Source of the DNA: Actinomycetes bacterium
GTDB taxonomy: Bacteria; Actinomycetota; Acidimicrobiia; Acidimicrobiales; Ilumatobacteraceae
NCBI GenBank assembly: GCA_025358125.1
Contig: JANYKS010000023.1
Location: 1-64,000, forward strand
Direction: 5' to 3'
Length of the DNA stretch: 64,000 nucleotides
Shown: piece after piece, positions 1-12,849 of the stretch
Position numbering within the stretch: the first letter of the stretch is position 1
Layout: each line of letters starts with the position of its first letter
Notes under the pieces: generated by a model
The model's database searches: none
Seen by the model: only the letters and a program-made list of their open reading frames with translations
Told to the model about the DNA's origin: nothing
Program-made: the position numbers and the translations under genes

Positions 1-207
1 GACAAACACCACCACCACAAATTTGGTGTCACCGGCAACGCCGACATCGCCGGCGGCCTCCAATTTCGTGACGAACGGGGCCGGATCATCGCCGCATCCG
101 CCCAACCCAACCCGCCAAACAGGCCACCCCCACCACCACCCAAACCGTACCCCCACCCCACCGGTGAGACGATGCACACCAAATGGCTCCACTTCCACAA
201 CGCCTGA
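1..207 (+). CDS. C-terminal end of an HNH endonuclease-like (DUF222/13E12 type) protein, partial
   Basis: An open frame runs from base 1 to a TGA at 205-207 and gives the last 68 residues of a protein whose start lies outside the window. It opens with a run of four histidines followed by KFGVTGNAD and a proline-rich stretch, then ends with a Trp/His-containing tail. The tail resembles the ends of the DUF222/HNH (13E12-type) proteins that are multicopy in actinobacteria. The His cluster would be the end of the HNH metal site. The family assignment is from memory of the pattern. The gene converges on the FHA-protein gene, and the 68 bases between them hold nothing recognisable. Confidence 0.5.
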   Translation, partial: DKHHHHKFGVTGNADIAGGLQFRDERGRIIAASAQPNPPNRPPPPPPKPYPHPTGETMHTKWLHFHNA

Positions 208-275
208 CCAGACCGCCGCGCCCACCGCTGCCCGTCCGGTTGATCGACGACGACAGGCGCGCCGCAAGTTCGGCG

Positions 276-1544
276 TCAGCCCTTCTGGCGCGCCGACGAC
301 TCGAACGTGGCGGTCAGCCGTCCGAACGCAACGTGTGAGCCGGGCGAGAGCAGCACCGGCTGATTCGGTGTCAGTCGATCCCATTGCTGGCGGTCGTTCG
401 ACCAGACGAAGCTGCCGTTGGTCGAGCCGTGATCGACGATGTGCACGTCCCATTCCACAGCGCGGATCTCGGCGTGGACGCGCGAGATCGTGTTGCCCGG
501 ATCGATCAGGGTTACCCCCTGGGCGCGTCCCTCGCGAACCTCGGGATCATCGTCGGGGTCGCGTCCGAAGACGAGGCTCGTCACCAGTGTGTGGTATGCC
601 CCGTCGCTCATCACGAGCACGCCGAGCGGAGGCCGCACGTCGTCGCTGAGAATGAAGCTGGTCTGATGCATCGCGATGCCACACGTTGCGCAGAAGCGGG
701 TGCGCGGGTCATTGAAGTGACCGCGGCTGCACACGAGCCCCTTGACCTTCACCGGTTGGGGCCCCGACGCTGACAACGCCGCGGGAGCAGAGGCGCGGTG
801 TGGTGCGGCGGCGGCCGGCATCGCCGCGGTGTCCGCCAGAGCGGGTGCCAGAGCGGGGGCTGGGGCTGGTGCAGGGGCAGGGGCGGGTTGCGCGGGGGAT
901 GGTACCGGTGCCGCGGCGGCTGCCGCCGGCGCGGCCACCAGGATCGGCAACGGCTCGGCCGGTGGAAGGTCATCGTTGCCGGGCTCGCGGAGCGACACCA
1001 TCGCCTTCGCGGCAGGCACAGCACCGGCTGGGGCCGCGGGAGCTGCCACGGGCTGGCTCGCCGCACCTGGCGTAGGACCCCATGGCAGCACAGTCACGGT
1101 TTTGGCCCGCAGGCTGAAGCCATCGGCGGCGATCACACCGTCGTTGATCGTGAGCAGCGGATCCACGGACGAGTCACCGAAGAGGAGGTCGAGCGCCGAG
1201 ATGTCGCGCAGCTGTGTCTGGAACGCCCCAAGGCCGCTCGCGCCGATCGGCTCGGCGCCGCTCGAGCGCTGCACCATCAGCGGCACGCCACCCTGGACGA
1301 GCACGTCGACCGATTCGTCGCCGATCAGGATCGCGCAGAACGGACCGAGCGCAGCACCGCCGTTCGCGAGGCGGGCCAGTTCGCCCATCACCTCCGACGT
1401 CGGCCGGTCGCCGACGAGGCGGCACCATCCAACGAGGGTGGACGCGGCAGCGGCATCCCCTGCCGAGTAGACGATGGTGTTGCCCATCCGGACCAACCGA
1501 CCACGGCCGGCGCCATGTTGGGGAATGAGGGTGAAGTTCTGCAT
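276..1544 (-). CDS. FHA-domain protein with a zinc ribbon and a long Pro/Ala linker
   Basis: 422 residues. An N-terminal domain of unknown fold (about 1-175) is followed by a Pro/Ala-rich low-complexity linker (about 175-260), a short zinc ribbon (about 270-290, CSRGH then CATCG) and a C-terminal FHA domain (about 310-415) with GRD, SRVHAE and STNGS, the residues that bind phosphothreonine in this family. The start at 1544 has a GGAGGAC ribosome site 6-7 bases upstream and lies one base after the kinase stop, so translation is probably coupled. It is the last gene of a minus-strand operon with two Ser/Thr kinases and is the obvious candidate reader of their phosphorylation. No signal peptide or membrane segment is seen. 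Confidence 0.9.
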   Translation of the reverse strand: MQNFTLIPQHGAGRGRLVRMGNTIVYSAGDAAAASTLVGWCRLVGDRPTSEVMGELARLANGGAALGPFCAILIGDESVDVLVQGGVPLMVQRSSGAEPIGASGLGAFQTQLRDISALDLLFGDSSVDPLLTINDGVIAADGFSLRAKTVTVLPWGPTPGAASQPVAAPAAPAGAVPAAKAMVSLREPGNDDLPPAEPLPILVAAPAAAAAAPVPSPAQPAPAPAPAPAPALAPALADTAAMPAAAAPHRASAPAALSASGPQPVKVKGLVCSRGHFNDPRTRFCATCGIAMHQTSFILSDDVRPPLGVLVMSDGAYHTLVTSLVFGRDPDDDPEVREGRAQGVTLIDPGNTISRVHAEIRAVEWDVHIVDHGSTNGSFVWSNDRQQWDRLTPNQPVLLSPGSHVAFGRLTATFESSARQKG

Positions 1545-1545
1545 G

Positions 1546-2373
1546 TCATTGTCCTCCGAGGGAATCGATGAGTTCGCCGACCTCAAGCGCGGTCTGGGGA
1601 CGGCGCTCTGGCGCAACGTCGGTGCAGGCGAGGATGAGGTCCGCTTCGCCAGGCGTCAACAGATCACGCTGTACGTGGGGGGCATTGCGGAGCACGGAGC
1701 GAACGGCCATCATCGGATCCGCCCCATCGACACCGGGATGGATGTGCGCGCCGGTCAACACCCAGTGCAGGATCGCGCCGAGTGAGTAGATGTCGGTGGC
1801 GCGGCTTGCGCTGTCGCCCATGATCAGCCTCGGATCGACGAAACCGACCGAGGCCATCGGCGCCATCGACGTGACCGAACCTGTACCGAGTTGGGCCAGG
1901 CCGAGGTCGCCGAGGCAAGCCGACCCGTCGCCGCGGAGCAGGATGTTCCCCGGCCGTAGGTCTCTGTGGGCGATGCCGGCCTGATGCAGATCATCGACGG
2001 CCCTGGCCGCGTCTGCCACGGCATGCAGCTTGGCCGCCCTCGTCAGCTCGGTGGTCGGCTCGGCGAGCGTGCCGCCCTGGCACCACTCCATCGAGTAGAA
2101 GAAGAAGTCCTCGTGTTGGCCGGCGTCGTACAGCTCGACCAGGTACTTGCTCTTGACCCGCGCGAACAGCTTGAGTTCACGCGTGAAGCGGCGGAACCCG
2201 GCTTCCTGCGATCCGCCGACGACCTTGATCACGACGGAATCGGCGAGGCCGAGGCGCTGCGGTGGCGTGGCCAGATAGAAGCGTCCGTGCCCGCCCTCGC
2301 TGAACGATCGCAGGATCGCGTAATCCCCGAGCATCGAGGGGATTTCGGTTGAAGAGTCGCGTTCACCGTCCAT
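1546..2373 (-). CDS. Small Ser/Thr protein kinase (single catalytic domain)
   Basis: 275 residues, almost entirely one Hanks-type kinase domain. Visible are a glycine loop (SEGGHGRFY), the VVIKVV lysine, the catalytic HRDLRPGN loop and DLG in place of DFG, followed by an activation segment ending near a VDPR element. No transmembrane or sensor domain follows the catalytic domain, so it should be soluble. The ATG at 2373 was chosen because the preceding membrane-protein gene ends at 2376; the in-frame extension upstream has shadow-like composition. Gaps to both neighbours are 1-2 bases, so it belongs to a tight operon with the FHA protein, its likely target or partner (inference). Confidence 0.88.
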   Translation of the reverse strand: MDGERDSSTEIPSMLGDYAILRSFSEGGHGRFYLATPPQRLGLADSVVIKVVGGSQEAGFRRFTRELKLFARVKSKYLVELYDAGQHEDFFFYSMEWCQGGTLAEPTTELTRAAKLHAVADAARAVDDLHQAGIAHRDLRPGNILLRGDGSACLGDLGLAQLGTGSVTSMAPMASVGFVDPRLIMGDSASRATDIYSLGAILHWVLTGAHIHPGVDGADPMMAVRSVLRNAPHVQRDLLTPGEADLILACTDVAPERRPQTALEVGELIDSLGGQ

Positions 2374-2375
2374 CG

Positions 2376-2837
2376 TCAGAAGAAGATCCGGCCGCCGCGG
2401 AAACGCCAACGAATGAACAGCACCTTGATCGGCCCGAGGACGAACAACCACATCACCATCCATGTGGAAACGACGTGCCACCAGAACGTCGCGTTCGTCG
2501 CGGTCGCACCGAACTTCGTGTCGAGGTCGAGCGCTTTGAACACGACGAAGGCGACGATCGCCTCGTTGATCACTTCGAAAAAGGTGAACATCACCGGCCA
2601 GTCCTTCTCCCACCGGAACTGTTGGAGGAGGTGATAGATCCACTCCCAGAACAACACGCCGAGGGCGAGCACGATCCCGAGCACGGTGAAGGTGGTCTTG
2701 TAGGTGTCAAACAGCGAACCGTCGGTGAGGTCGCGCTGGTTTGGCAGGAGCGGTGTGATGATCAGCGTCCACGGGATGCCGACGAAGAGGATCAGCCAGA
2801 TCCGGGTCTGGATCCGGCCGCTGAGTGTTGGAATCAT
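2376..2837 (-). CDS. Four-helix integral membrane protein of unknown function
   Basis: 153 residues with four strongly hydrophobic segments near residues 12-32, 50-72, 88-108 and 120-145. Charged loops lie between them and the tail is Arg-rich (RWRFRGGR). No catalytic or cofactor motif is recognised. The ATG at 2837 has GGGAG about 8 bases upstream. It sits 77 bases after the FAD-type protein gene and two bases before the small kinase gene, so it is co-transcribed with signalling genes. It could be a membrane anchor or sensor for the soluble kinase, but nothing in the sequence shows this directly. Confidence 0.75.
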   Translation of the reverse strand: MIPTLSGRIQTRIWLILFVGIPWTLIITPLLPNQRDLTDGSLFDTYKTTFTVLGIVLALGVLFWEWIYHLLQQFRWEKDWPVMFTFFEVINEAIVAFVVFKALDLDTKFGATATNATFWWHVVSTWMVMWLFVLGPIKVLFIRWRFRGGRIFF

Positions 2838-2914
2838 TGCGTGCTCCCGAAGTGAATGGACTGAGATGTCATTGCTCTGTTGCGTTGATCGTGGTTCGTC
2901 CGCAAGCGCTGGTT

Positions 2915-4495
2915 CTAGATCGGCGTGTGGCGGAACCATTTCCACCAACTGCCGACCGAACGGGCGATGCCGATCCGTTTGAGGAAGCCCTGCGCGGCGA
3001 GGTCGTCGGTGATGCGTTGGGCGGAGAGCTGCAGGCCGAGGAACGTGTCGACACCCTGGAAGTAGCCGCCGTATGTTGCCGCTCCCGATCCGTACATTCG
3101 CCCGGGGCCGCTGCGCGTCCCGCGTATCTCGAAGCTCGGGTCGACGTCGAGTCGCCCGAGCGGGTTGCGCCCGGCGCCGGAGTGGTCGAGCAGGTCGGCG
3201 AGCATCCGGTGCTCGCGGATGTCGGCTTCGAGGCCGGTGCAGTCGATGATGACGGATGCCTCGAGCGTTGCCATGCTGGCATTCTTCTGCTTGATGGTGG
3301 TGATGACGCCGTCGGTACCGGGTCGTACGTCGGTCACCTCACCCTGATACGTGGTGTACCACCCAGCTTGGCGGGCGAGCTTCATCTGATCGAGCCACAG
3401 CTTTCGATACGGCGTGTGGGCCCCGCCGGTGAGCTCGTACAGATCCTTGCGGGCCGTGCCCTCGAGCTTGAGCATCTGATCGATGTGCTGGCCGCCCCAG
3501 GCGCTCTTGGGCGCATTGAAACCCTGGAACGCAAAGCCGTACGCGCCGCGGCGCTTGGCGAATCCCCACTTGTTGTGGCGGCCCGAGTAGTAGGTCCGGA
3601 AGAGGTGGAGGATCTCGGTCTGCGCGCCCTTGTTGATCCGGTCCTCCATCAGCCGCTGGAGCACGCGTGATGCCACGACACCGCCACCGCGAACCAAGAC
3701 TTTGCCAGGCTTGCGGAGCAGGCTCTCGTAGACGTGCTCGTGGGGCTCGTAGGCATTGACCGTACGCGCGAGATCGTTGTACTTCGTGCGGTACTCCTGC
3801 AGGTCCGGCAAGAACTTCAAACCGGGATAGCCGATGGCGAGATGCACGAATTGGCTGCGGTACGCGATCCGGCGGGTGGCGCTCGCGCCGGGGGGCGGTG
3901 TCAGGATCGTGAAGTAGCCGCCATCGGCACGGCGTCGCACCATCCGGACCTGTCCGGTGACGAGCATCTCGCGGTAGCGGATCCGTGCCGCTTCCTTCTC
4001 CATCGTTGCGAAGACCGTGCCGGCCAATGGTGTCCAGTAGTCCGCGAGCACCGGTTCGCTGAGCACGTTCCAGATCGGATGCAGCCGCTTGTCGCGGCGA
4101 GCCTCGTGCAAGGCGTAACTCGGGAAGCCCCACAGGCAGTCGGGCCTGCTCTGCGAGTCGCTGCGCAGCCGGGCGTCACGCGGGATCTGGCTGACCTTGG
4201 TGAGGTACTCGTAGGTCTGCCATGGGTAGTCGAGGTTTGACAGCACCCGGATCTGAGAGGTGTCCGCGCCCGCGACCCGGAGGTAGTTGGTGAAGACGAA
4301 CGAACCCATGCCGCCGCCGCAGGTGACGATTGGGACGTCGACGATCGGAATCCCGGCGCGCTGCACCATGTCGTCGGTCCACGAGTCTGTCGTGATCAGT
4401 TCGTCGTTGAGATCTCCAGGCATGGGCGCGGGCGGCGCCGTCTCGATTGCCTCGCCCAGCACACTGCCCGGCGTACTGATCATGTCGTTGGGCAC
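2915..4495 (-). CDS. FAD/NAD(P)-binding-type protein of unknown substrate
   Basis: 526 residues. A dinucleotide-binding start lies at about residue 60 (VDVPIVTCGGGMGSF, a variant GxGxxG Rossmann loop), and a second Gly-rich strand-loop near the middle (KVLVRGGGVVASRVLQ) looks like a second nucleotide site, as in two-dinucleotide-domain flavoproteins. A late IIDCTGLE strand resembles the conserved TG motif of flavin monooxygenases. The GTG at 4495 is preferred because GAGGAG lies five bases upstream; upstream ATGs have no such site. The gene lies between two kinase-related genes, an unusual setting for an oxidoreductase. Substrate and even activity are unknown. Confidence 0.7.
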   Translation of the reverse strand: MPNDMISTPGSVLGEAIETAPPAPMPGDLNDELITTDSWTDDMVQRAGIPIVDVPIVTCGGGMGSFVFTNYLRVAGADTSQIRVLSNLDYPWQTYEYLTKVSQIPRDARLRSDSQSRPDCLWGFPSYALHEARRDKRLHPIWNVLSEPVLADYWTPLAGTVFATMEKEAARIRYREMLVTGQVRMVRRRADGGYFTILTPPPGASATRRIAYRSQFVHLAIGYPGLKFLPDLQEYRTKYNDLARTVNAYEPHEHVYESLLRKPGKVLVRGGGVVASRVLQRLMEDRINKGAQTEILHLFRTYYSGRHNKWGFAKRRGAYGFAFQGFNAPKSAWGGQHIDQMLKLEGTARKDLYELTGGAHTPYRKLWLDQMKLARQAGWYTTYQGEVTDVRPGTDGVITTIKQKNASMATLEASVIIDCTGLEADIREHRMLADLLDHSGAGRNPLGRLDVDPSFEIRGTRSGPGRMYGSGAATYGGYFQGVDTFLGLQLSAQRITDDLAAQGFLKRIGIARSVGSWWKWFRHTPI

Positions 4496-4567
4496 TCGCG
4501 CTCCTCGCTGATGTCGCATTGCTACTGTTACATACATTGATGATTCGAAAGTTCACAGTAGGAATCC

Positions 4568-6475
4568 TCAGCCGTAGTACGCCAGTTCGGCGTGGAGCCG
4601 GTCGAGGGCCTGCTGGGCGATCAACATCGCCGCTCGCGCGCTGAACGGGATCCGTCCGGTGTTTTCGAGGACGCGCCATCCGGTGCTCGTCGATTGCACG
4701 GCTGCCTGCAGCGCGGCGGCGTCGGCGTCGATAGCCAGGCCGAGCCGTCTGGCCGGTTCGGGATGGATCAGCAGCCGTGCCAACTCTGCCCGCAACCAAC
4801 GGGGCAGGGTTGCCCGGCCGGAAACGATCTCGCGCAGCAGCTCCAATTCGACGAGCAGCGGCAACTCGTGCTGCAGCGCCTCGATCCGGTCGAGCAGTTC
4901 GGTCCTACCGCTGCCGCTCGGTGCCGTCTTCATCGCGAGTTGGACGAGACGAAGACCCGATGTCGCACGGAACGCGACGCCGCGCACGTCGGCCAGGTTC
5001 GTTGCGAACGCGTGCAGCCTTGCGATCGTTGCGGGTGTCGCAGCGCTGAGCTCGGGGATCAGCGTCAGACCCGCTGGACTGGCCAGGACCTCTTCAATGA
5101 CGCGTTGTGGATTCTCGCCGGGCGCCGCTGTGACGAGTGCTTCGACAGCGTAGGGGCCGGCATCGGCGGCCTTGATGATCGCGAGCAGCTCGTCGATCGT
5201 GGCGAGCGGCTCACGTTCAGCACTCGCGAACAACAGGACCACGAGGTCGCTGCTCGCGACCTTGGGATGGCTGATCGATCCGACGTGTTCGACCGACATG
5301 TCGTCGCGGGCCCGCAGCCCGGCCACGACGGCGAACGCGTCGGAGTTCATCGGGCCGACAACGGCAGTCGTGAACGGACGAACGAGGCGAGCCTGGGCCG
5401 CGACGGCGACCGGCGCATCGTTGAGCAGAAATTTGGAACCCGTGATCAGGTCGTTGACGCGCCCAGCCGCACCCGTCAACGCGAGTACCACCGGTGGCCT
5501 GGTCGGCGGGGGCGGCGGTGGCAGCAACACTCCCGTCGGAGAGGCGATTGCTGTCGTCTTGTCGGCGGGGGGCGGCATCGCCCGGATTGGGACCGGGGCG
5601 TGTGGAAGGAAAGCGGCGAGCGCGTCACCGAGCGCGTAACACGAGTCGTAGCGGTCGTCGGGCAGGCGGGCCATTCCTTTGGCCAACACGTCGCTCAGGG
5701 CTCGGGGCAGATCGGGGCGGATCTCGAACAGCGGCTGGGCGGTTGATTCAGCGCGGCTGCGGCGAACACCCGACAGCGTCTCGGAAGCGAACGCCGGATG
5801 GCCGGCGAGCAGCTCGTACATCACGGCTGTCGCCGCGAACACATCCACCCGGCGGTCGATGACAGCGGTCGGGTGGGCCTGCTCCGGCGCCATGTAGGCG
5901 GGCGTTCCGGCGGCGAGCGTGAACCCGCTCGCGACGGCGAGATCCTTGGCCAACCCGAAGTCGCCGATCATGACCGCGTCGTCGCCGATGAACCGCCCGG
6001 CGCGCCGCGCCGCTTCGCGTTCGTGGTTGCGGACCGAGCGGAACAAGATGTTGCTCGGCTTGATGTCTCGATGGACGACGCCGAAATCATGCACGATCGA
6101 CAACGCCTCGCAGATCTCGAGCCCGAGCCGAAGCGCGACCTCGGTGTCCATCGGCTGACCCTTTGGCAGCTCCTCGATCTTGTCGTGGAGCGTTCCCCGA
6201 TCGGCGACGGCCATCACGAAGTACGGCCGGCCGTCGGGCAGTTCGTCCACGTCGTGGACGCGCACGACACGATCATGATCGATGCGCCGCAGCAGCCGCG
6301 CTTCTTCGATGAATCGGCGGCGGATGTCGACATTGCGGGCCCAGTTGTCGGCGAGCACCTTGATCGCCACGTGCACTTCCAGCAACTCGTCGGACGCGAG
6401 CCAAACGGTGGCGAAACTGCCGGCGCCGAGCGCCCGCTCCGCGAGGTACTTACCGATCCGATGGGGATTCGCCAC
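4568..6475 (-). CDS. Large Ser/Thr protein kinase with a C-terminal degenerate dynamin/GTPase-like half
   Basis: About 635 residues. The N-terminal kinase domain (about 5-270) is complete: GAGSFATVW loop, VAIKVL lysine, HRDIKPSN, DFGLAK and TPAYMAPEQ. A Pro-rich linker (about 290-330) leads to a roughly 300-residue C-terminal region. That region has an alpha/beta start (FTTAVVGPMNSDAF, then SSDLVVLLF) laid out like a GTPase P-loop and switch but lacking GxxxxGKS, followed by a long helical part. This may be a dead dynamin-like GTPase domain (inference). No membrane helix is seen. The GTG at 6475 is preferred because a GATACT -10-like element lies just upstream; an ATG at 6511 is possible. First gene of the signalling operon. 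Confidence 0.85.
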   Translation of the reverse strand: MANPHRIGKYLAERALGAGSFATVWLASDELLEVHVAIKVLADNWARNVDIRRRFIEEARLLRRIDHDRVVRVHDVDELPDGRPYFVMAVADRGTLHDKIEELPKGQPMDTEVALRLGLEICEALSIVHDFGVVHRDIKPSNILFRSVRNHEREAARRAGRFIGDDAVMIGDFGLAKDLAVASGFTLAAGTPAYMAPEQAHPTAVIDRRVDVFAATAVMYELLAGHPAFASETLSGVRRSRAESTAQPLFEIRPDLPRALSDVLAKGMARLPDDRYDSCYALGDALAAFLPHAPVPIRAMPPPADKTTAIASPTGVLLPPPPPPTRPPVVLALTGAAGRVNDLITGSKFLLNDAPVAVAAQARLVRPFTTAVVGPMNSDAFAVVAGLRARDDMSVEHVGSISHPKVASSDLVVLLFASAEREPLATIDELLAIIKAADAGPYAVEALVTAAPGENPQRVIEEVLASPAGLTLIPELSAATPATIARLHAFATNLADVRGVAFRATSGLRLVQLAMKTAPSGSGRTELLDRIEALQHELPLLVELELLREIVSGRATLPRWLRAELARLLIHPEPARRLGLAIDADAAALQAAVQSTSTGWRVLENTGRIPFSARAAMLIAQQALDRLHAELAYYG

Positions 6476-6568: not shown

Positions 6569-7834
6569 TCAGAGCCCGATCTTGGGGTCGAGGAACTGAT
6601 TGGTGACGATGTCTTCAGCCTTCAGGCCGGCCTTGGGCGGGCTGTCCTGAGCGGTGTAGACCGGAATCGCCTTGGCGATCAGGTCGTTGACCCGGGCGAT
6701 GTCGAACTTGCTCATCACACCGTCGGGACCGTTGGCGACGAGCTTGTCCTTGGCGATCGTGGCCGCGGCGTAGTCGGCAGCGCCCTGGTTGTACGTCCAC
6801 CCGAATGCCGCGCCGAACTTGGCAACCGCGTCGAGGATGACCGTGTTCGCCGTTGCGGGAGCTTTGGTGTAGTCGATCGTCGCCTGCTGGATGATCGGCA
6901 CGAGCTTTTTGAAGCAGTCACCGTACTTGGTGATGTTGGACGGGATCGTCGCGATCGACTCGGCGTAGTTGCCCCAACCGATGTCGTTGATGTACTGGTA
7001 CTTGACCGGCTTCTTCCAGTTCGGGATCTCGTGCTCGTACAGGTATGGCTCGGCCGAGCCGAATCCCTGCTGGGCGGACTTGCCCTCGTCAGCGACGAAC
7101 AGGCTGGGGTCGCCCTTGTACGAACCGTCGACCTGATCCTTGGACAGAATGCCGGTCGAGGTCAGGTAGTCCATGTACGCGGCACCACCGAAGTAGCGCA
7201 CCTTGACCTTCTTCGTGCCGAGGTCCTTGATACCGGTGACGTCGGGATACGTGGCCGGATCCCACATGATCATCTGCGGGTTCTTGTTGTAGCCGGAAGC
7301 AATCGCGACCGTCGGGAACTTGGCGGAGTTCTGGATCGCCTCGTCGGTGTACACGAAACCCAGCAGAATGCTGGTGTCGGCGTACATCAGCGAGGTGTCA
7401 CTCGCAAAGCCTGTGGCAGCGCCACCCGAGAGCACGGTGATCTTGACACCGGTGTCGACGGTGCCTGCCATCAGCGGTCCGGTGACACTGGCCTTGGTGG
7501 AGTTGATCGTGTAGCCCTTGCCGATCATCTGATACAGGAAGCCGTGCTCGGCCTCGGGTACCCAGTCGGTTTGGATCTTGATCTCGGCCGGGCAGATGTC
7601 CTTGAGCGCGCCGGCGGTGATCGGTGCACCGCCGGTGCTGGCGCTCGTCGCGGTCGTACCGGACGTGGCTGTAGTCGCTGATCCGGCGGTGGTGCCGGAT
7701 GTCGCAGCAGTGCTCGCGGGGGTACTCGCGGCGGATGTCGTTGCTGTCTTCGTGGCGTCGCTGCCGCAGGCGGCGAGGATCAATCCCGCTGCCATGGCTC
7801 CGGCGAACAGCGACTGAGTGCGTCGTTGTTGCAT
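6569..7834 (-). CDS. ABC transporter substrate-binding lipoprotein (SsuA/NMT1-like)
   Basis: 421 residues. A lipoprotein signal (LILAAC, lipobox Cys about residue 23) is followed by a Thr/Ser/Ala-rich linker (about 25-70) and an NMT1/SsuA-type periplasmic-binding fold beginning at about 85. The linker is typical of exported actinobacterial lipoproteins tethered through the peptidoglycan. A GGGAG ribosome site precedes the ATG. The gene is the last of a minus-strand operon with a permease and an ATPase of the nitrate/sulfonate/taurine class. The ligand cannot be read from sequence. The upstream LLM monooxygenase and amidohydrolase suggest a small organic N- or S-compound. Confidence 0.85.
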   Translation of the reverse strand: MQQRRTQSLFAGAMAAGLILAACGSDATKTATTSAASTPASTAATSGTTAGSATTATSGTTATSASTGGAPITAGALKDICPAEIKIQTDWVPEAEHGFLYQMIGKGYTINSTKASVTGPLMAGTVDTGVKITVLSGGAATGFASDTSLMYADTSILLGFVYTDEAIQNSAKFPTVAIASGYNKNPQMIMWDPATYPDVTGIKDLGTKKVKVRYFGGAAYMDYLTSTGILSKDQVDGSYKGDPSLFVADEGKSAQQGFGSAEPYLYEHEIPNWKKPVKYQYINDIGWGNYAESIATIPSNITKYGDCFKKLVPIIQQATIDYTKAPATANTVILDAVAKFGAAFGWTYNQGAADYAAATIAKDKLVANGPDGVMSKFDIARVNDLIAKAIPVYTAQDSPPKAGLKAEDIVTNQFLDPKIGL

Positions 7835-7916
7835 TGTTGCTCTCCCTTGTTGGTTGGTTGTTCACGCTGTGTTGCGAGGATCCGAGGAGCCTCTGGGTGG
7901 ATAGAAGTTTGTCGGG

Positions 7917-8798
7917 TCAGCCCGTCTTGCGGGTGGACTCGTACCACTTGCCGGTGACCCGTTTGGCCAACCATCCGAACATGAGGAACATCGCGATGCC
8001 GAGCGCGGCGGCGATGATCAGGCCGCCGAAGGTCTGCGGGTAGATTCCCTTCGTACGGTACTCCTCCATCACGATGCCGATCCCGGGCTTGCTGCCCTGG
8101 CGGAAGAACTGCTCGCCGACGACTGCGCCGATGACCGACAGCCCGGCCGAGATCCGAAACCCGGTGAAGATCGCCGGCATCGCCGACGGCAGCTGGAGCT
8201 TGACCAGGCGGGTCCACCGGGAGGCCTTGCGAAGGGTGAACAGGTCGTGTTGGCCGACATCGGCCGATATCAGGCCGAACAGCGTGTTGGTCACGATCGG
8301 GAAGATCGAGATCATCACGCACACGAACAGCCGCGAGTTCAGACCGCCACCGAACACCGAGCTGATCACCGGCACGATCGCCAGCACCGGAATGGCCTGG
8401 AGTGCGACCAGATACGGATAGGTGGAACGCTCGACCCATTTCGCCTGGGCCATCAGAACGGCCAGCGAGACACCGATGATGATCGAGATCGCGAGGCCGC
8501 CGAGCGAGACGAGGGTGGTCCACTTCAAGCCGTTCAGCAACTTCGCGCGGGCCAACGGATTGCGGAATGATTGGTTGACGACATCGCCCGGCGATGGCAG
8601 CAGGAACCCCGGTTTGTCGAAGATGTGGCGCATTCCCCACCCGTGCATGAATCTCCACAACAGGATGAACAGCACGAAGATGACCGTCGGGCCGATGATT
8701 CGGCTCCATTCGAAGCCCTGACGTTTGTTGTCCTGTGGGCCAACGAGCTCGAGCCCGACGTCCGGTGGGGTGACGGCGAGGGCTGTTTCGCGGTTCAT
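7917..8798 (-). CDS. ABC transporter permease (SsuC/TauC type)
   Basis: 293 residues with about six membrane helices, the first near residues 28-48. The cytoplasmic EAA loop of BPD-type permeases is visible (LRKASRWTRLVKLQLPSAMPAI, about 190-210, conserved Leu-Pro-Ala part). Length fits the SsuC/TauC/NrtB family. The start overlaps the end of the ATPase gene by four bases, indicating translational coupling. An 81-base gap separates it from the binding-protein gene downstream. Together the three genes form one complete importer. Confidence 0.9.
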   Translation of the reverse strand: MNRETALAVTPPDVGLELVGPQDNKRQGFEWSRIIGPTVIFVLFILLWRFMHGWGMRHIFDKPGFLLPSPGDVVNQSFRNPLARAKLLNGLKWTTLVSLGGLAISIIIGVSLAVLMAQAKWVERSTYPYLVALQAIPVLAIVPVISSVFGGGLNSRLFVCVMISIFPIVTNTLFGLISADVGQHDLFTLRKASRWTRLVKLQLPSAMPAIFTGFRISAGLSVIGAVVGEQFFRQGSKPGIGIVMEEYRTKGIYPQTFGGLIIAAALGIAMFLMFGWLAKRVTGKWYESTRKTG

Positions 8799-9604
8799 GA
8801 ATGCGCTCCGCGCAAGGAGTGCGAGACGCGCCCGGCGAGTTCGGCAAACGCCGGCTCGAAGCGCAGGTCGGGCGAGCGCGGGTAGGCGAACGGCACCGCG
8901 AAGTCGTCGACGATCCGGCCAGGGCGGGCGCTCATCACGAGCACGCGGGTCGACAAGAACACGGCCTCGCTGATCGAGTGGGTGATGAACAGACCGGCAA
9001 AGGCGTTGAGCTGGAACAACTTGATGACCTCGTCGTTGAGCCGTTCACGGGTGATCTCGTCGACGGCTCCGAACGGCTCGTCGAACAAGAAAACATTCGG
9101 GTTGAGCACGAGCGACCGGGCGAGCGAGACCCGCATCTTCATCCCGCCGGAGAGTTGCTTGGGGTACTTGTCCTCGACCCCGCTCAGCCCAACCAACTCG
9201 ATCGCTTCGAGGGCCCGCCGGCGGCGTTCGGCCTTCGGGATGCCCTCCAATTCGGCCATCAGCTCGACGTTGCGCAACACGTTGCGCCACTGCAGCAGCG
9301 TGGCGTCCTGAAACACGTAGCCGAGGCTGCTCCGGTCGACCGTGACACTGCCCGTCGTCGGTCGGTTCAGGCCGGAGGCGATGCGGAGCAGCGTGCTCTT
9401 GCCACAACCCGATGGACCAACGACCGTGACGAACTCGCCCGGATGCACCTGGAAGCTGGTGTCGCCGAGCGCGTGCGTTCCGTCGGGAAACGTCATCGAA
9501 ATCCCGGCAAAGCTGAGCGCTGGTTGCGGATCGGCGCCGGGGGGGTTGTGGGTCATGGGGCCAAACGTAGTGTTCGAGCTTGTTGTGGTCGTAGTCTGGG
9601 TCAT
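8795..9604 (-). CDS. ABC transporter ATP-binding protein (SsuB/TauB type)
   Basis: 269 residues. Walker A GPSGCGKST, Q-loop FQDATLLQW, signature LSGGMKMR, Walker B NVFLFDEPF and the switch histidine in FITHSI are all present in the expected order. It therefore looks fully active, in contrast to the damaged paralogue at 36536-37321. The ATG at 9604 has AGGA upstream; a second ATG about 16 codons later is also possible because the first residues are a Thr/Ser-rich low-complexity run. It overlaps the permease start and follows the SDR gene by 23 bases. Confidence 0.9.
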   Translation of the reverse strand: MTQTTTTTSSNTTFGPMTHNPPGADPQPALSFAGISMTFPDGTHALGDTSFQVHPGEFVTVVGPSGCGKSTLLRIASGLNRPTTGSVTVDRSSLGYVFQDATLLQWRNVLRNVELMAELEGIPKAERRRRALEAIELVGLSGVEDKYPKQLSGGMKMRVSLARSLVLNPNVFLFDEPFGAVDEITRERLNDEVIKLFQLNAFAGLFITHSISEAVFLSTRVLVMSARPGRIVDDFAVPFAYPRSPDLRFEPAFAELAGRVSHSLRGAHS

Positions 9605-9627
9605 GGTCGCGTCCTGCTGAGCCGGGC

Positions 9628-10404
9628 TCAGTGCATCACCATTCCGCCGGAGACGTTCATCGCCTGGCCGGTGCAATAGCTGGCATCGTCGGAAGCGAGA
9701 AAGAGGGCCATCTTGGCGACGTCGGCGGTGTCGGCGAGCCGTCCGAGCGGTGACCTGGCCGACCACGCCTGCACCATTTCCGGGGTTCGTGTCGCGGCCC
9801 CCATCTCGGTCAGTACGTAGCCGGGGCAGATGCAGTTGACGGTGACGTTGTGAGCACCGAGCTCCATCGCCGACACACGCGTGAACGCGATCACGGCGGC
9901 TTTGGAGGCCGCGTAGTGGGCCTGGTTCGGCGAGCCGATCTTGCCGGCCATGCTCGCCATGTTGATGATCGTGCCCCGGCCATTGGCGCACATCTCCCTC
10001 CCGGCGATCTGGGTGGTGACGAACATCGCCCGCACGTTGATGTCGAATGTGAGGTCCCAGTTCTCGATCGTCATCTCGAGGATCGGCGCCATCTTCAGAA
10101 TGCCGGCGTTGTTGACCAGGATGTCGATCCCGCCGAGCAGCTCGATGGCCTCGGTCGTTGCGGCTGCCGTTGCGGCTGCGTCGGCGAGGTCGGCCACCAC
10201 CGATTCGGCCTCCAGCGCTTTGGCGAGCTCGCGGACTTCATCCGCGGCGATGTCGATCAGCACGAGTTCAGCACCCTCGTCGCGAAACGTGCGCGCGATC
10301 TCGGCGCCGATACCGCGGGCGGCCCCGGTGACGACGGCCCGGCGCCCGGCGAGGCGCCCAACGGCAGTGCTCGGTGTAGTCGGCTCGCTCCCCATGTTGG
10401 GCAA
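9628..10404 (-). CDS. SDR-family NAD(P)-dependent oxidoreductase
   Basis: 258 residues of classical short-chain dehydrogenase. TGAARGIG cofactor loop (about 26-33), NNAG strand end, catalytic Ser in the NMASMAG segment, YAASK catalytic Tyr/Lys and the PGYVLT loop are visible. It should oxidise or reduce an alcohol/ketone, but the substrate is not evident. It lies in a minus-strand operon between an amidohydrolase and the ABC ATPase, so it probably acts on a catabolic intermediate of the imported compound (inference). The start may be three codons further in. Confidence 0.9.
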   Translation of the reverse strand: MPNMGSEPTTPSTAVGRLAGRRAVVTGAARGIGAEIARTFRDEGAELVLIDIAADEVRELAKALEAESVVADLADAAATAAATTEAIELLGGIDILVNNAGILKMAPILEMTIENWDLTFDINVRAMFVTTQIAGREMCANGRGTIINMASMAGKIGSPNQAHYAASKAAVIAFTRVSAMELGAHNVTVNCICPGYVLTEMGAATRTPEMVQAWSARSPLGRLADTADVAKMALFLASDDASYCTGQAMNVSGGMVMH

Positions 10405-10444
10405 ATACTAGAGCATTGGCTGGACCGCCCCGCCCTGGCGAGCG

Positions 10445-11656
10445 TTAACAGTTGATTTCGTCTTGGGGTGAAGAACCGCTGACGACACGTCCTTGGTGGA
10501 TCACGGTCCGACCGCCCGGTGCGAACGCGATGGCCTCCCGAACGGTGGCAGCCGGGATCGCGACGAGTTCGCCTGGTTGGCCGGGCGCGATCCGCCGACC
10601 ACTGCCGACGAGCGCGCCACGTGCACACCCGGAAACGGTGTCGAACGCCGCCTGGGGGAGCAGATGGGCGGCCATCACCATCAGCGCCGCGGTTTCCAGC
10701 GGGTCGGCGCGGCCCATCGGATTGAACGGGTCCTGGAGATTGTCGGCGCCGGCACAGAGGTTGACTCCCGCGCTCGTGAGTGCCTTGACGGCAGTGAGCG
10801 CACGTGGCATCGCGTGCTGATGTTCGCGGCCCTGCAGGAAGAGGTTGGTGTGCGGAAGGGCGACGACGCTGATGCCGGCCTCTGCGACGAGTTCCGCGAC
10901 ATGACGTTGGCGGATCTCGGGCTGCATTCCGAGACTGACGCAGTGGCTGGCCGTGACCCGGTGCGGGAATCCGGTGGCGATGATCCGGTTGGCGAGGTCC
11001 TCGAGCGACAGCTTGTTCGAGTCCAAGGTCTCGTCGGTGTGCAGATCCACGTCGCGGCCGGCGTCGCCAGCTATGCCGAGCAGGACTTCGTTCGCCTCGT
11101 GCGGGTCGTCGTCGAGATGGGGGCAGCCACCGACGATGTCGGCGCCGGCATCCAGTGCGTCGCGCAGGAGTGCCCGGTTGTCGGCGCCGGCCGCTCCGGT
11201 GACCGGCCAACTGACGAGCGACACGATCTGAAGGTCGCAGATGTCGGCGACCCGGCTTCGCACCTCGGCCAGCGCCTGCACTGACATCAAGCCATTCTCG
11301 ATGGTGGTGTCTGCGTGGGATCGAATGAGGGTCGCGCCGTTGGCGACCATCAGCCGCACCGCCCGCTCGGCCCGTTCGACGGTGTCGGCATAGGTGATCA
11401 GATGGCGATGGCCGGCCATCGCGATGATCGCGCCCATCAGATCCCCGGTCGGGTTGGCGATCCGCTCGGACAGGAACGCCTTGTCGAGGTGGGCGTGTGG
11501 CTCGGCCATCGCGGTCAGCAGCAACTGGCCGTCGAGATCCAGCACGGTTTCGCCGTCCTGCGCGCTCAATGCCGGTTCGACAGATTCGATGACGTCGCCG
11601 CGCAGGCGGACATCGACGACCCGCCCGTCGTCGAGCGTCGCCGAACGCAGCAGCAC
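10445..11656 (-). CDS. Amidohydrolase, cytosine-deaminase/CodA-like
   Basis: 403 residues. Metal-dependent amidohydrolase with EPHAHLDK (HxH site, about 53), HTDET, a TASHC histidine and a late GADNLQDPF aspartate, the layout of the cytosine deaminase subgroup. Likely reaction: hydrolytic deamination or ring/amide cleavage of a heterocyclic or amine substrate. A GTG start at 11656 lies two bases after the LLM monooxygenase stop, so the two are co-translated. Following an oxidative enzyme with this hydrolase suggests an oxidation-then-hydrolysis route for an N-containing compound (inference). Confidence 0.85.
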   Translation of the reverse strand: MLLRSATLDDGRVVDVRLRGDVIESVEPALSAQDGETVLDLDGQLLLTAMAEPHAHLDKAFLSERIANPTGDLMGAIIAMAGHRHLITYADTVERAERAVRLMVANGATLIRSHADTTIENGLMSVQALAEVRSRVADICDLQIVSLVSWPVTGAAGADNRALLRDALDAGADIVGGCPHLDDDPHEANEVLLGIAGDAGRDVDLHTDETLDSNKLSLEDLANRIIATGFPHRVTASHCVSLGMQPEIRQRHVAELVAEAGISVVALPHTNLFLQGREHQHAMPRALTAVKALTSAGVNLCAGADNLQDPFNPMGRADPLETAALMVMAAHLLPQAAFDTVSGCARGALVGSGRRIAPGQPGELVAIPAATVREAIAFAPGGRTVIHQGRVVSGSSPQDEINC

Positions 11657-11658
11657 GG

Positions 11659-12849
11659 CTAGACGAGCGGAGTGCCGGTGAGCGGGCGTCGCTCGATCGG
11701 CTCCCCGAGGCGCGGGAACACTTCCTCTGCGACGAGGTGCATCTGCTCGTTCATATCGTCGCGGGTCAGGCCGGGATAGTCGAAGAAGAAGCAGATGTGC
11801 TTCAGATCGAGCAGGTCACGCCAGTATCCGATGGCATCGACTGCGTCGTCGATCGATCCGACGATCTGGATCTTCTGGGCGTTGCTCTCCTCCACGGTCG
11901 GGCAGTGATCGAACGCGACCTTTGAGCCGTCCGGGTTCCGGTAGCTGCTGAAGCGGCCGTAGGGCGACAGGAACTTGTTGAATTCGTCCTGGCCCGGGCG
12001 GCCCTTGACGAGCGCCTGCTCGTAGGTCTGGGCGAGATGCAGGTTGAGCACGAGGCAGCGATCCTCGCCCGGCGCGACGGGCCGGCCGATTTCCTCGCGG
12101 ATCGCGGCGTAGCGATCCCACTTCTGCTTCTGGCTGTCGGCGTTCTGCAGCCAGTACACGGCCTTGTGCCCGGCGCGGGGCACGTACTCGATCGTCTCCG
12201 GCGAGGTGACCGGCTGATAGATGTCGACGACGCGGCGCGGCCTGGGGACGAGGGTGAGATGGTCCACCATGGTGCCGCGATCGGGAACGTCGTCGGGTGG
12301 CAGTACGAACTGCTTGCCCCGATAGGAGAAGGTCTCGTTGTACCAGGCCGACTTGATGATCTCCATCGACTCCTCGAAGACCTCGCGGTTGACCCGGTCG
12401 TGCTCGGCGCTCATCGCGTTGTCGCCGCTGGCGACGACGGTGCCGAGCGCCCACGCCTCGCGCGGCACCGTGCCGCGGCCGACACCGAACTCCATCCGAC
12501 CGCCGGTGAGAATGTCGGCCAGCGCGAAGTCCTCGGCGAGGCGCAGCGGATGCCACTGCGGGACCACGTTGAACATCTGCCCCAAGCGCAATTCCTTGGT
12601 CAGGTGGGCGAGGTGCAGACCGAATTGGATCAGGTTCGGCAGGACCTCGTAGCCCTCGTGCTGGAAGTGGTGTTCGGTGAGCCACATCGTGTCGAAGCCG
12701 AGCGAATCCGCTGTCCTCGCCCAATCGATGAGGTTCTCGTAGCAGGCGATGACGGCGTCGTTGCCGTAGCGGCGGGCGGTGGCCGCCACTGTCGGGTCAC
12801 CGGCGTCGGGCATCGCTACGGTGCAGAAGTAGTTGGAGTCGACTCGCAT
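11659..12849 (-). CDS. LLM-class flavin-dependent oxidoreductase (luciferase-like monooxygenase)
   Basis: 396 residues of bacterial luciferase-like TIM barrel. Characteristic are the N-terminal strand, the WLTEHHF segment (about 57-63) and a PQWHPLRLAEDFALADILTGGR-type region (RLAEDFA). These enzymes use FMNH2 and oxygen, usually supplied by a separate flavin reductase. The ATG is preceded by TAACCT plus six bases, so the operon promoter lies directly on the start and the mRNA would be leaderless. First gene of the run LLM, amidohydrolase, SDR, ABC ATPase, permease, binding protein. Confidence 0.88.
   Translation of the reverse strand: MRVDSNYFCTVAMPDAGDPTVAATARRYGNDAVIACYENLIDWARTADSLGFDTMWLTEHHFQHEGYEVLPNLIQFGLHLAHLTKELRLGQMFNVVPQWHPLRLAEDFALADILTGGRMEFGVGRGTVPREAWALGTVVASGDNAMSAEHDRVNREVFEESMEIIKSAWYNETFSYRGKQFVLPPDDVPDRGTMVDHLTLVPRPRRVVDIYQPVTSPETIEYVPRAGHKAVYWLQNADSQKQKWDRYAAIREEIGRPVAPGEDRCLVLNLHLAQTYEQALVKGRPGQDEFNKFLSPYGRFSSYRNPDGSKVAFDHCPTVEESNAQKIQIVGSIDDAVDAIGYWRDLLDLKHICFFFDYPGLTRDDMNEQMHLVAEEVFPRLGEPIERRPLTGTPLV

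Follow-up and report, generated by a model that had tools for sequence, protein, structure and literature searches.

In Escherichia coli, the flavoprotein KefF gates KefC, a glutathione-gated K+ efflux antiporter (PMC2920069). In Mycobacterium tuberculosis, Rv1747 is encoded together with the kinase PknF, and its FHA I domain binds the phosphorylated universal stress protein Rv2623 (PMC3908365, PMC5549992). Here we describe an actinobacterial gene set that brings together a flavoprotein of an unnamed family (FLAV), a four-helix membrane protein (TM), an FHA protein, Hanks-type kinases and, at many loci, an ion transporter. It was analysed in a stretch of 64,000 nucleotides (the window) from a member of the Ilumatobacteraceae (assembly GCA_025358125.1, contig JANYKS010000023.1). 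We give a probability of about 0.45 to the reading that the window holds most of a locus for transporter control that is regulated by a flavoprotein and by phosphorylation, such that redox state and kinases would switch cation/proton exchange. A limited literature search returned no paper joining an FHA domain, a cation proton antiporter and a protein kinase.

Organization of the locus

A sequence-only reading of the window had described five minus-strand genes, some of them 1–2 bases apart, that encode two Hanks-type kinases, an FHA reader with a zinc ribbon, a four-helix membrane protein and a FAD/NAD-type protein. Our analysis placed all five open reading frames (K1, FLAV, TM, K2 and FHA) at the same coordinates (Table 1). 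The genes are separated by 2 bp (TM–K2) and 1 bp (K2–FHA), with looser gaps of 30 bp between K1 and FLAV (counted from the FLAV start at 4537) and 77 bp between FLAV and TM. The protein assignments were also borne out: the kinases and the FHA domain by Pfam profiles, the zinc ribbon by its conservation in an alignment, the membrane protein by the four helices of its model and the FAD/NAD-type protein by the two-dinucleotide-domain fold of its predicted structure.

The window begins at a contig end (base 1 of contig C63 of the source genome, G000). Its first 231 bases, which lie 45 bp past the FHA stop codon, are a repeat with copies on contigs C27 (96% identical) and C68 (99%) of the same genome. 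This repeat is probably the reason that the assembly breaks off just beyond the FHA gene; given the contig end and the repeat on two other contigs, the locus may be incomplete here. On the other side, upstream of K1, positions 6569–12849 of the minus strand carry ABC uptake-like genes (binding protein, permease and ATPase) and genes for a short-chain dehydrogenase, an amidohydrolase-like protein and a luciferase-like monooxygenase. This unit is separate from the locus, with a distance of 93 bp to K1.

Table 1 Features of the five-gene locus (positions in the window; FLAV residues are numbered from residue 1 at base 4501)
Feature	Position	Strand	Description and evidence
Contig-end repeat	1..231	.	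Also present at two other contig ends (C27, C68)
FHA protein	276..1544	-	Zinc ribbon and C-terminal FHA domain; PF00498, E 4e-10
FHA protein, C-terminal FHA domain	~321-530	-	PF00498, E 4e-10
FHA protein, zinc ribbon	~681-731	-	C-x3-H-x8-C-x2-C, conserved in alignment
FHA protein, N-terminal domain	~1098-1544	-	Unknown fold; alignment
K2	1546..2373	-	Compact Hanks-type kinase; Pkinase, E 1.9e-28
TM	2376..2837	-	Four-helix membrane protein, 153 aa; alignment and model
FLAV	2915..4537	-	FAD/NAD(P)-type flavoprotein, unnamed family; fold model
FLAV motif	Residues 62-67		GGGxGS
FLAV motif	Residues 254-278		H-E-H-x-Y-E...GKVLVRGGGxVAS
FLAV motif	From residue ~417		IIDCTGLEADI
K1	4568..6475	-	Hanks-type Ser/Thr kinase; Pkinase, E 6e-38
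K1, C-terminal region	4571-5530	-	~320 aa, after a proline-rich linker
K1, kinase domain	~5648-6442	-	Pkinase, E 6e-38

Recurrence across Actinomycetota

A scan of genome contigs returned 135 relatives of FLAV, and the 80 loci kept from it were all actinobacterial by title. Plasmid records gave a single match, from Nonomuraea, with no annotation under the matched stretch. Among 91 FLAV loci, we based linkage counts on the 74 with at least 6.5 kb of downstream sequence. Rather than standing mostly alone, FLAV was accompanied by TM in 73 of these 74 loci and by FHA in 67. K2 was found near FLAV in 33/74 and any kinase within 8 kb in 36/74. The question raised by the sequence-only reading, whether kinase and FHA genes recur beside the flavoprotein, was thus answered for FHA by a consistent linkage across the phylum and for kinases by a frequent one. 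An ion transporter was present in 33/74 (30 with a CPA2 antiporter, 3 with a TauE-type exporter; the TauE type occurs in six loci in all), and transporter-linked loci span 25 of 37 genus-level groups. The FLAV gene set is therefore widespread in Actinomycetota, beyond Acidimicrobiia.

The composition of the set varies. Nocardia, which contributes about one-quarter of the locus set, has FLAV–TM–FHA only, and Actinomadura, Frankia and others similarly lack an antiporter or K2 nearby, so that the three-gene core may act alone or on other targets. In Planomonospora, one locus consists of FLAV–TM alone and a second is a complete FLAV–TM–FHA–antiporter–K2 set. Antiporter-linked and unlinked loci are intermixed in the FLAV tree and TauE-linked loci branch deeply, in a tree made by a quick method in which deep forks are weak and long branches meet.

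TM and FLAV occur in the identical 12 of 396 genomes of the phylum. The chance of such a coincidence is 1/C(396,12) = 4e-23 if genomes are treated as independent, which they are not. Even where the two genes lie at least 0.8 Mb apart (G374), both are still present. FLAV and TM are the near-obligatory pair of the locus, and the strict partner of FLAV is TM, not a kinase.

The same pattern was observed in a second branch of flavoproteins, represented by distant homologues in five genomes (L132, L133, L137, L138 and L139; hhalign probability 99.3 for L133). A TM homologue is the next gene in all five (profile comparison probability 90.6; phmmer among the five), with FHA nearby in four and a kinase in two; one of the five, L137, has a CPA2 antiporter, Usp tail included, immediately upstream. 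The linkage pattern recurs on either side of a deep split in the tree.

The flavoprotein and its membrane partner

Neither Pfam nor NCBIfam gave FLAV a family match of meaningful score; there were only weak matches to Trp_halogenase and FAD_oxidored. An AlphaFold model built from a 36-sequence alignment (pLDDT 85.8) has a two-Rossmann FAD/NAD(P) fold that is matched over most of the protein (residues ~52–511). In a Foldseek search of the PDB, the best matches were ornithine and other N-hydroxylases (PvdA, 6.6e-18; SidA; SsDesB). VIA-align gave Z 25.6 over ~316 residues for YpdA and Z 24–25 over ~390 residues for N-hydroxylating and flavin-containing monooxygenases; scores within 1 Z of each other count as equal, and of the two the N-hydroxylase type gives the longer alignment. 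The glycine-rich motifs of both dinucleotide-binding regions and the IIDCTG motif are kept across the 36 sequences, and we take IIDCTG to be analogous to the ATG motif of the N-hydroxylase/FMO superfamily. As modelled, FLAV is a flavoprotein by fold, which leaves it without an enzyme classification. A role as a thiol-disulfide reductase was considered, since YpdA ranks with the closest structures, and rejected, because no cysteine is present in all members (position 421 is Cys in 25/36 and position 507 in 23/36). In a separate observation, the metagenome-assembled genome (MAG) 340R_metabat_22 carries FLAV on two contigs (L019 and L020), 80% and 82% identical to FLAV of the window, which are either paralogues or a strain mixture.

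TM is likewise without a meaningful match in Pfam or NCBIfam, and neither sequence comparison nor a fold search with its model (four helices, pLDDT 89.9) produced a significant relative in the PDB. Its alignment contains a strongly conserved pattern, WExxYH...QFRWEKDWP...E...GP...RWR.GG, with conserved residues W64, E65, Y68, H69, R75, W76, K78, D79, W80, P81, E92, G135, P136, R145 and G149. We found no support for TM as a bis-His haem protein, as H69 is its sole conserved histidine and the second (position 121) is present in 36 of 86 sequences.

FHA protein and kinases

In the FHA protein, the N-terminal domain is followed by a variable Pro/Ala-rich linker. Across 28 homologues, C271, H275, C284, S353 and H356 are invariant and C287, R327 and N375 nearly so. 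The phosphothreonine-reader residues G326, R327, S353, H356, N375 and G376 are all invariant or nearly invariant in the family, which has one to three matches per genome. In Nonomuraea (G400, C12:258813-260303), the FHA homologue was matched as two adjoining pieces, and this copy may be frame-shifted, split or misassembled.

Both kinases have the Pkinase domain of Hanks-type kinases, and K2 of the window retains the catalytic Lys (VIK), HRD and DLG. K2 belongs to a distinct ortholog group, as its profile scores 336–402 bits for orthologs versus at most 153 for other kinases. The HRD Asp is kept in 28/38 K2 homologues and lost in 10/38 (L004, L006, L008, L042, L077 and L082 among those affected), which suggests, from sequence, that some lineages hold K2 pseudokinases and that kinase activity is not essential everywhere. 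The C-terminal region of K1 had no Pfam match, and its best PDB match was at chance level (E 0.26). Apart from the window, the complete K1 architecture was seen in the related MAG (L020) alone. Some other loci have extra kinases nearby, in which a hydrophobic segment is accompanied by an additional C-terminal domain.

A linked ion transporter

K2 is closely associated with the transporter. Of 30 K2 genes flanked by 3 kb of sequence on both sides, 23 lie within 3 kb of a transporter gene. In two genomes (G402 and G403), K2 lies apart from FLAV yet adjoins an antiporter, and in G374 TM, K2, FHA and the antiporter remain together, apart from FLAV.

Fifteen linked antiporters were searched against Pfam (E 0.01). 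PF00999 (Na_H_Exchanger) was found in 15/15 and a Usp match in the cytoplasmic tail in 5/15; these were the only domains found, and a KTN/RCK (TrkA_N) domain was not among them. The proteins also match the CPA2 model TIGR00932, below its cut-off. Against known structures, the antiporter profile matched 4bwz, 5bz2 and 5bz3 (E 2e-33) and, at a lower level, KefC (E 9e-8). No conserved threonine in the antiporter tail stood out as a phospho-site.

In the related MAG whose FLAV is 82% identical to that of the window (L020), the antiporter gene follows the FHA stop codon at a distance of ~10 bp. In the window, no transporter adjoins the five genes, and the contig ends just past FHA. A CPA2 antiporter homologue is present on contig C118 of the source genome, 67% identical to that of L020. 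In L100 (C118:12472-17223), an Hsp70-like gene whose product has a C-terminal membrane segment immediately precedes this homologue. A linked antiporter copy of the window may have moved, been lost or lie across the assembly gap. Judged by gene content elsewhere, the usual member missing from the window set is a predicted ion/proton antiporter.

Possible functions

The sequence-only reading had proposed a redox-linked phosphosignalling module. The linkage to FHA and kinase genes agrees with this proposal, which overlooked the strict partner TM and the transporter (33/74). Among loci with long flanks, nearly half include an ion transporter (usually a CPA2 antiporter), which the window, ending at a contig break, does not show; the target of such signalling is therefore probably a transporter. 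A working scheme can be outlined, in which the linkage is directly seen and the mechanism draws on KefF–KefC and PknF–Rv1747 as precedents. TM would anchor FLAV at the membrane beside the transporter. A threonine, either in the tail of the transporter or in a partner protein, would be phosphorylated by K2 (in some lineages also by a further kinase, for instance K1), and the FHA adaptor would bind this phosphothreonine and thereby hold or release the FLAV–TM complex. Use of FAD and NAD(P)H by FLAV would make the gate redox-dependent, as the FLAV fold suggests, so that both redox state and kinase signals would switch cation/proton exchange. We tentatively propose, with less than even confidence, a previously undescribed class of multi-protein ion-transport controller of Actinomycetota, in which FLAV docked on TM would gate the antiporter while K2 and the FHA adaptor would set the assembly, so that redox and phosphorylation signals would meet at a single transporter.

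The fold of FLAV is nearest to N-hydroxylating and flavin-containing monooxygenases, and FLAV–TM is the sole near-obligatory pair. The pair might instead be a membrane-bound, NAD(P)H-dependent, class-B-like monooxygenase or dehydrogenase, with TM holding a membrane-embedded or quinone-like substrate; the polar TM residues E65, H69 and E92, in or near the helices, could form a site, and many loci have neither transporter nor kinase. We consider this rather unlikely, and equally so the accompanying idea that the kinase and FHA regulate the enzyme while the antiporter is a co-regulated helper in pH or ion balance. Two unrelated transporter families recur at the loci, K2 adjoins the antiporter even when away from FLAV, and clustering of neighbours yielded no constant biosynthetic gene.

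A different possibility is a general hub for redox-linked phosphosignalling, in which FLAV would sense the NAD(P)H/FAD state and signal to FHA and the kinases, with many targets including the antiporter. This would fit the linkage of FHA to FLAV–TM in 67/74 loci as against 33/74 for the transporter, as well as the extra kinases with a hydrophobic segment and C-terminal domain. It is nevertheless improbable in our view, because of the close association of K2 with the transporter, which holds even apart from FLAV, and because about half of the loci have no kinase nearby.

A chance neighbourhood of common signalling genes was rejected as very improbable: although kinases are plentiful in large actinobacterial genomes (6 to 81 in genomes of 4–12 Mb, roughly one per 150–700 kb, so that one would fall within 16 kb of FLAV by chance in only a few to ~10% of loci), orthologous TM and FHA genes accompany FLAV in 73/74 and 67/74 loci with an FHA family of only one to three members per genome, FLAV and TM share the same 12/396 genomes, the linkage survives rearrangements and the second flavoprotein branch repeats it.

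If control of a transporter by FLAV, kinase and FHA is the correct reading, flavoprotein-assisted antiport resembling KefF–KefC and kinase/FHA control resembling PknF–Rv1747 would be combined in one conserved locus across many actinobacterial families, and the locus would offer a direct test of how bacteria couple ion and pH homeostasis to redox state. As both FLAV and TM fall outside Pfam, a widely conserved pair has gone unannotated.

Comparison with known systems

The transporter domain of the linked antiporters resembles that of the Na+/H+ antiporters 4bwz, 5bz2 and 5bz3, in a profile match that excludes the Usp-like tail. FLAV shares its overall fold and two dinucleotide-binding regions with class B monooxygenases (PvdA, SidA, SsDesB and FMO) and with YpdA. 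It differs from them in sequence (~11–15% identity), in matching no Pfam or NCBIfam model, in its strict linkage to a membrane protein and in having no cysteine common to all members.

Unlike KefC–KefF, the linked antiporters end in a Usp-like tail and gave no match to a KTN/RCK domain; FLAV has a two-Rossmann FAD/NAD(P) fold, whereas KefF is of the quinone-reductase type; and the locus adds TM, FHA and kinase proteins. Compared with PknF–Rv1747, the FHA domain here is on a separate, unfused zinc-ribbon protein, whereas Rv1747 is an FHA-bearing ABC transporter; the linked transporters are of the PF00999 or TauE type; the Usp-like tail is fused to the antiporter; and the FLAV–TM pair is present. 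Given the lack of a KTN domain, the different flavoprotein fold and the unfused FHA, we file the locus under neither system. It nonetheless shares with KefC–KefF the combination of a CPA2-type antiporter (PF00999 in 15/15 linked antiporters) and a soluble, putatively regulatory flavoprotein, and with PknF–Rv1747–Rv2623 the association of a kinase and an FHA reader with a transporter and a universal stress element.
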